NCBI GenBank assembly: GCA_030727625.1
Contig: JANRBI010000099.1
Span: 1 to 33,148, forward strand
Source of the DNA: Salibacteraceae bacterium
GTDB lineage: Bacteria > Bacteroidota > Bacteroidia > Flavobacteriales_G > Salibacteraceae
Length of the DNA stretch: 33,148 nt
Direction of reading: 5' to 3'
Made by a program: the position numbers and the translations under genes. This document shows positions 23-1,699 of the stretch, in pieces (position 1 is the first letter of the stretch; each line of letters begins with the position of its first letter). The notes below the pieces were generated by a model, which did not search any database, had not been told where the DNA came from, and worked only from the letters and a program-made list of their open reading frames with translations.

Positions 23-146
23 AACTTTGAATAAGATTAGAAACCGAGATAATGGCTTAAATGGACAAATGGCGAAATAGCCTTATGAAAAGAGGTTTTT
101 GGTGGTTGGTCAAAGTCTTTAAGCCGAAAGCTCGCTACGAAGCGAT

Positions 147-292
147 GCGGCCAAGACAGTAGCGGATATCCTTTTGGAGAAAAGCCTTAGCGCAGTTGGG
201 TTTAAGAAAGCGACCGAAGGAAGCTCTTTTTAAACCCAATACGAAGCTTGGCTTTTTGAAAAAAGATAGCAGCGCATGGCTTGAATTGCCGC
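147..292. repeat. Nested palindromic intergenic element, candidate dispersed structured repeat
   Basis: Terminal arms GCGGC/CAAG (147-155) and CTTG..GCCGC (280-292); inner stems AAAAGCC (180-186)/GGCTTTT (250-256) and TTGGGTTTAA (196-205)/TTAAACCCAA (230-239); imperfect direct repeat GACAGTAGCGGAT (155-) / GATAGCAGCGCAT (265-). Confidence 0.6.
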
Positions 293-294
293 TC

Positions 295-331
295 AAAAAA
301 AAGCCCTTCACCAACATTTGGCAAAGGGCTT
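295..331 (-). terminator. Rho-independent terminator downstream of the M42 peptidase gene
   Basis: Minus strand AAGCCCTT tGCCAAatgTTGGtg AAGGGCTT followed by a T-run (A-run on +). Confidence 0.8.
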
Positions 332-356
332 CGGAATTAATTATTGACTTCGATAT

Positions 357-1478
357 CTATTTCAAATATCTGAAATCGTGGTTATTATCGATTTTTTGAA
401 GTGCGTTGAAAATCAAGCGAATTACGTTTTCTACGTCTTCGCGGTGCACCATTTCTACCGTTGTGTGCATGTAGCGAAGTGGCAAACTGATCAATGCGCT
501 TGCTACACCGCCCGCTCCGAAGGCAAAGGCATCGGTATCGGTTCCTGTAGAGCGGCTTGCGGCCATGCGCTGGAACGGAATATTGTTGTCTTTTGCTGCG
601 CCAATCACCAGTTTTAGCAAGTTGTTTTGCACGGCAGGTCCGTAGCTCAATACAGGTCCATCGCCCGATTTAAAATCGCCTTGTTCTAGCTTTTTGATCA
701 TTGGCGTGTTGGTGTCGTGACACACATCGGTAACGATAGCCACGTTTGGTTTCAAGCGCTCAACAATCATTTCAGCACCACGCAAACCAATTTCTTCTTG
801 CACCGAATTCACGATGTAAAGTCCGAAAGGAAGTTCGGTTTTGCTTTCTTTCAACAAACGCGCAACTTCGGCAATCATGAAGCCACCCATTCTGTTGTCC
901 AAAGCGCGACCAACAAAATGATCTTTGTTCAGGATCATGAATTCGTCAGGATAAGTGATCACACAACCTACGTGCACTCCCATTTCTTCAACCGCGGCTT
1001 TTGAACGAGCTCCACAATCCAAGAAAATGTTGTCCACTTTAGGCGTTTCTTCTTTGCCATTGTGGCGCGTGTGGATTGCTGGCCAACCAAAAACTGCTGG
1101 CACGGTGCCATTGTCGGTATGAATCAAAACACGCTTTGATGGTGCAATTTGATGATCTGAACCACCATTGCGCTTCACGTAAATAAAGCCGTCATCGCTG
1201 ATGTAATGCACAAACCAAGAAATTTCGTCAGCATGTGCTTCAATCACCACTTTGTACTCGGCTTTAGGATTAACCACGCCCACTACGGTGCCATAAGTAT
1301 CAACAATGTATTCATCGATGTATGGCTTCAAGTATTCTAACCAGATTTTTTGTCCTTCGCTTTCAAAACCGGTTGGTGAAGCATTGTTCAAGTACTTTTC
1401 AAGAAACTTGATTGATTTGTCGGTAAGCACTTTTTTAGGCGTTGCTTCGGCCTTTTTGGTTTTATCTGTTTTCGCCAT
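357..1478 (-). CDS. M42 family metallopeptidase (glutamyl aminopeptidase/endoglucanase-like)
   Basis: ORF 357..1520; internal Met at 1478 (MAKTDKTKK) is the likelier start; M42-like motifs EAHADEI, FLDCGARS, GRALDNRMGG, VQEEIGLRGA, TDTDAFAFGAGG. Confidence 0.88.
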   Translation of the reverse strand: MAKTDKTKKAEATPKKVLTDKSIKFLEKYLNNASPTGFESEGQKIWLEYLKPYIDEYIVDTYGTVVGVVNPKAEYKVVIEAHADEISWFVHYISDDGFIYVKRNGGSDHQIAPSKRVLIHTDNGTVPAVFGWPAIHTRHNGKEETPKVDNIFLDCGARSKAAVEEMGVHVGCVITYPDEFMILNKDHFVGRALDNRMGGFMIAEVARLLKESKTELPFGLYIVNSVQEEIGLRGAEMIVERLKPNVAIVTDVCHDTNTPMIKKLEQGDFKSGDGPVLSYGPAVQNNLLKLVIGAAKDNNIPFQRMAASRSTGTDTDAFAFGAGGVASALISLPLRYMHTTVEMVHREDVENVIRLIFNALQKIDNNHDFRYLK

Positions 1479-1699
1479 TTCGAATGTTGTTTTGTAATAA
1501 GAATCCGAATGTAAAAACATTGTTTAAGCTGCACGAAACATTATCACTTTTTTGTCATTGAGAGGCGAAAACAATAGTTGAAAAAGTAAATAATGCAAAT
1601 TGGCTGGCTTAGAAAGCCAGAATGATGAAACCAAAACTTAGCACAGTAAAAACATAAAATTTGGTGCGTTGTTACCTTAAACATTACACATTTGCACAC

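Follow-up and report, generated by a model that had tools for sequence, protein, structure and literature searches.

The window, which is the whole 33,148-nucleotide stretch of contig JANRBI010000099.1 (assembly GCA_030727625.1, a Salibacteraceae bacterium) that was analyzed, carries near its left end a nested palindrome whose right neighbor is the gene for an M42 peptidase. The palindrome corresponds to the repeat family Flavo-1 (Rfam RF01705), and its parts, named after the helices P1 to P3 of that family, are laid out as follows.

132..145, plus strand: small hairpin TCGCTACGAAGCGA immediately outside P1; a similar CTNCGAAGCGAT precedes P1 in at least two other copies, L035 and L036
147..292, plus strand: whole element, long-form Flavo-1 from P1 to P1' (RF01705 match at 145–290; P1 from relatives)
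147..151, plus strand: 5' strand of P1, GCGGC, outer helix outside the Rfam model, pairing with 288–292
153..170, plus strand: 5' arm of P2, AAG A CA GTA GC GGA TATC (anchored alignment of 146 elements; Rfam alignment)
172..264, plus strand: extended apex of nested stems (RNA and DNA folds; sister copies of the same genome)
209..225, plus strand: conserved apical hairpin of the long form, AGCGACCGAAGGAAGCT (11 distinct occurrences among the loci compared)
265..282, plus strand: 3' arm of P2, GATA GCA GC GCA TG G CTT; every pair formed, both GNA/GNA loops retained
283..287, plus strand: junction GAATT, where many relatives have a third hairpin (GACCC..GGG)
288..292, plus strand: 3' strand of P1, GCCGC, pairing with 147–151
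293..302, plus strand: 3' tail TCAAAAAAAA, corresponding to the conserved CCAAA tail (tail counts among relatives)
300..332, minus strand: intrinsic-terminator-like hairpin of the M42 gene, adjoining the element
357..1520, minus strand: M42 peptidase gene (PF05343, E 1.4e-73)

The earlier note described a nested palindromic element at 147–292, and every arm that it named is present: GCGGC 147–151 with GCCGC 288–292, CAAG 152–155 with CTTG 280–283, AAAAGCC 180–186 with GGCTTTT 250–256, and TTGGGTTTAA 196–205 with TTAAACCCAA 230–239. Its limits coincide exactly with the outer helix P1 as defined from relatives. Folded as plus-strand RNA, positions 130–310 reach −62.4 kcal/mol (z −3.76), while the minus strand folds more weakly (z −2.28); 147–300 folded as DNA gives z −3.47, and 0 of 200 shuffles equaled either the plus-strand RNA fold or the DNA fold. 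The two flanking motifs, GACAGTAGCGGATATCCTTTT at 155–175 and AAAAGATAGCAGCGCATGGC at 261–280, are also in place, though they are not the direct repeats they were taken for but the opposing strands of a single irregular helix, in which the GNA pieces common to both face each other as 3x3 internal loops (GTA/GCA at 159–161/274–276 and GGA/GCA at 164–166/269–271), with all core pairs formed. The open reading frames that overlap the element, 135–317 on the minus strand and 196–399 on the plus strand, do look like artefacts, as had been suspected, since neither has a Pfam match at E≤0.1. The 3' tail and the T-run of the M42 terminator overlap, and on the other side of the element a CTACGAAGCGAT motif lies directly 5' of P1 here (132–145) and in several other copies of the same genome (L035, L036), so that it is perhaps part of the unit.

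With cmscan at permissive thresholds, window positions 145–290 align to the whole of RF01705 with 37.9 bits (E 1.6e-6). This is below the curated gathering cut-off of 42 bits, a shortfall that goes with an apex of ~85 nt compared with 15 nt in the Rfam model, and the long apex is also why the covariance model R1, built in this analysis, misses the window copy. Two sister copies in the same genome, C221 (57.3 bits) and C189 (57.0 bits), exceed the cut-off. On its sequence and pairing, the palindrome belongs to the Flavo-1 family as one of its long forms, and the similar blocks that the earlier note mentioned from other Flavobacteriia are the same family. Rfam types the entry as "Gene; sRNA," a review counts it with the more abundant sRNA families of bacteria (PMC9029176), and the literature that we found since 2010 gives no function for it.

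The arms of 146 elements were anchored without an aligner, the elements being chosen by model score, a choice that favors intact copies. The two 3x3 loops are almost invariant as GNA/GNA (in the first loop of form 1, G.A in 66/68 and A.G in 68/68), with random middle bases; in form 2 each arm is one base shorter and G-R-C faces A-Y-A. The flanks outside the Rfam model hold the 5-bp outer helix P1 and the tail CCAAA, and many copies add a third hairpin, P3, which makes a three-way junction; the element ends show TAGCC/GCGTGA and CCAAA. When P1 was examined in elements not selected by fit, a perfect downstream complement to the 5-mer was present in 37 of 44 B-type elements, compared with 4.4% when another element's P1 was swapped in and a mean of 3.2/44 in shuffled flanks, and among 40 related elements there are 11 different P1 sequences, every one complementary. 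Once apex and P3 are trimmed from an alignment of 26 sequences, pairing holds in 99.0% of cells, double changes occur at 12 of 16 pairs and in 57 cells (12.1 in shuffles), and slid registers pair only to 28–40%. Because these 26 sequences were kept on P1 fit, P1 itself is better supported by the swap control. Wobbles in the core pairs comprise 17 G.U and 1 A.C, and one further position of form 2 has 29 G-T, 18 G-C, 11 A-T, and 0 A-C, both counts ignoring the relatedness of the sequences; this excess argues that the modeled strand is the strand under pairing selection. It does not separate RNA from DNA, as G.U is tolerated in RNA, and less so in DNA.

In the long form the apex carries the consensus AGCGAC-N(3-5)-RGAAGCT, which the window copy has as its apical hairpin, and which occurs at 11 distinct places among the loci compared (6 in the window's own genome and 5 in Flavobacterium relatives), all within Flavo-1 arms, some of which were judged by eye. 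Other apices also occur. Hairpins of the form CTGAG..TCGAAG (common CTTCGACAAGCTCAG type), some nested, stand in the apices of elements of one complete relative, G180 (for example L176, L169, and L167), and in a minimal form, seen at L179, L180, and the serC–serA spacer of G433 (L258), CTACC.TGTAG replaces the usual apex.

The earlier note had proposed a dispersed element or a structured RNA, to be checked by BLASTN and a covariance model against the host and related genomes, with a single copy lacking covariation as the outcome that would speak against it. The search returned both further copies and the strong covariation described above. The window's own genome (82% complete) has at least 11 copies, namely seven Rfam matches, the window copy, and three more long forms; long forms, recognized by eye from their arms, lie at C121, C223, C176, and C221, short forms at C189, C275:4578, C142, C180, and C299, and BLASTN finds a close composite copy at C275:5473–5791. 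G180 has 30 copies, and 82 of 296 genomes of the class have Flavo-1. Within the genus, two different models pick out the identical 4 of 13 genomes, and in the M42 gene tree the carriers and one non-carrier form a clade. Copies inside one genome mostly have only the element in common, with abrupt ends, although in G140, G064, and a few more the copies have a longer unit in common. Two exact duplications in tandem, 224 and 321 bp long, contain one Flavo-1 copy each (L197 in G140:C9 and L198 in G316:C11). Among 2.9 million viral contigs, just 21 stretches were found, many of them close to contig ends, and a plasmid search with the window element gave no match.

Orthologous spacers show the element both filled and empty. 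In Flavobacterium relatives (a genus assigned by name only for the folE–cysS loci, and the same genus being our assumption for G180), the serC–serA spacer has the element in some species, lacks it in others, and has it reversed in G420, and the folE–cysS spacer likewise has it in some species only. The spacer between M42 and yidC is 115–183 bp and without the element in 11 of 12 sisters of the window's genome, the twelfth having another neighbor. No pair of filled and empty sites close enough to show the exact junction was found: G014 and G020 share copy L046, and at L056 the element is absent from G020 in a region too diverged to read the junction. In a comparison of flanks, no offset had a convincing excess of equal sequences of the kind left by target-site duplication.

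The window element is antisense to M42, with the M42 terminator on one side of it and, on the other, probably the promoter side of the next gene. That gene, beyond the contig end, is probably yidC, judging from gene order in the sisters and similarity of the promoter. Across the 146 elements, with a simple ORF caller, the orientation classes are −− 41, ++ 32, +− 30, and −+ 26, the rest having a neighbor missing; the bias in G180 alone (−− 15 versus ++ 4) is gone in the larger set. The structure is alike in all classes, with 95–98% Watson–Crick pairs and 94–100% of GNA positions, and as a cis-acting RNA would be expected to decay where only its complement is transcribed, this disfavors a cis-acting reading. 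In the published transcriptome of F. psychrophilum, Flavo-1 matches fall sense or antisense alike, and many fall outside transcribed regions.

That the copies fold strongly and strand-specifically, whichever way they face relative to genes, points to DNA mobility and not to gene control. At a rough probability of 55%, we favor the interpretation that the element is mobile but non-autonomous, that it has been dispersed in trans, and that selection has acted on it as one folded single strand, possibly of single-stranded DNA. This draws on family membership, strand-specific pairing, the P1, P3, tail, and apical motifs, dispersion with abrupt ends, patchiness, empty sister sites, and orientation indifference. 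The folded strand would consist of P1, the irregular hairpin P2 with its pair of GNA/GNA loops, optionally P3, and the CCAAA tail, and it is this strand that would transpose; single-stranded DNA exposed during replication or transcription may be cut and moved by a putative nuclease or transposase. The window copy, between the M42 terminator and the yidC promoter suggested by the sisters, would then be a neutral or mildly insulating passenger.

The strongest of the alternatives, though clearly less probable than mobility, is that after spreading as a repeat the element took on a host function in place, direction-independent, in mRNA or DNA, such as transcript punctuation or 3'-end protection of the kind proposed for REPs. 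Placement between stop and start codons is tight, and B-type copies often have convergent neighbors (15 of the 43 for which both neighbors were called). The folE–cysS copies look vertically kept in three Flavobacterium species, with an unchanged core in diverged flanks, which suggests either function in place or gene conversion. In G180:C1, near 6.1 kb and 3.149 Mb (L172 and L173), two identical copies lie ~100 nt behind the 5S rRNA of two rrn operons, a position that such a function would also suit. Against this, the element is absent from the same spacers in many relatives, and it has no preferred orientation, yet the loops are conserved on one strand only.

Somewhat less probable again is the structured small RNA implied by the Rfam typing, with each copy transcribed as a trans-acting RNA. 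The covariation, the conserved loops and apical hairpin, and the G.U preference are all marks of a functional RNA, but there are up to 30 copies per genome, many of them in spacers with 0–20 bp to the next gene that leave no room for a promoter of their own, and the transcriptome matches outside transcribed regions and without orientation preference also speak against it. A sigma-70 scan, whose coverage does not extend to Bacteroidota promoters, found no promoter-like site upstream of the window element.

That Flavo-1 is, strictly speaking, a REP of a RAYT (TnpA_REP) system is improbable. It is dispersed, intergenic, and a single-strand hairpin, and subclass 2.6 RAYTs of Bacteroidetes are reported to have "atypical secondary structures" on their flanks, with copies elsewhere in the genome (PMC6006769). 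However, the Flavo-1-rich genomes G213, G168, G043, and G141 have no Y1 gene, only two of the 61 Y1 stretches scanned contain a Flavo-1 copy (one ~4 kb from the gene), an Rfam search of 20 of the 61 found none, and the ~17 with YIH.NP-type motifs have none adjoining. In G014 and G020, the Y1 transposase gene (185–191 aa; L061 in G014:C19 and L062 in G020:C3) instead has tandem and inverted AGCCCC..GGGGCGACA repeats on its flanks, its own REP-like system. An association with RAYT/Y1 genes was not seen, Y1 transposases do not track the family, and among the Y1/RAYT genes tested no mobilizing enzyme for Flavo-1 was found. Least probable of all is cis regulation of the adjacent gene by a 5'-UTR element, for although some 5' regions in F. 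psychrophilum coincide with Flavo-1 matches, orientation is neutral rather than constant, the neighboring genes are unrelated, and the window copy is antisense to M42, so that our best reading is that Flavo-1 is not a cis-regulatory RNA.

Returning to mobility, a more specific and quite tentative version is that Flavo-1 is a widespread Bacteroidota mobile family whose folded single-stranded DNA is recognized, through the three-way junction, the stacked GNA/GNA loops, the CCAAA tail, and in long forms the apical hairpin, by a nuclease or transposase other than Y1/RAYT. The mobility reading changes which tests on Flavo-1 make sense, and P1, the tail, and the apical hairpin complete the unit, which at full length could serve for an improved Rfam model and as a pull-down bait.

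In comparison with Flavo-1 as described (Weinberg et al. 2010, PMC2864571), the window copy has the same arms, GNA/GNA loops, and pairing register. P1, the optional P3, the CCAAA tail, and the apical hairpin within the long apex are, as read from sequence, beyond the Rfam model. The earlier note's likening of the element to REPs or MITEs holds for its dispersal, though it is typical of neither. Like the GTAG/CGTC REPs and their RAYTs (PMC3733652, PMC6006769), Flavo-1 is dispersed, intergenic, structured, and acts as a folded strand, and like the CGTC REPs it is without a dedicated transposase, but at 61 to about 150 nt it is too long for a REP (20–40 bp), and it has neither a GTAG or CGTC end tag nor a RAYT neighbor. 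Like MITEs, it is short, non-autonomous, dispersed, and patchy. An unsystematic look through the loci compared showed no autonomous copy. Unlike MITEs, it has no target-site duplication that we could find, and its ends pair only through the 5-bp helix P1 within a multi-helix fold.
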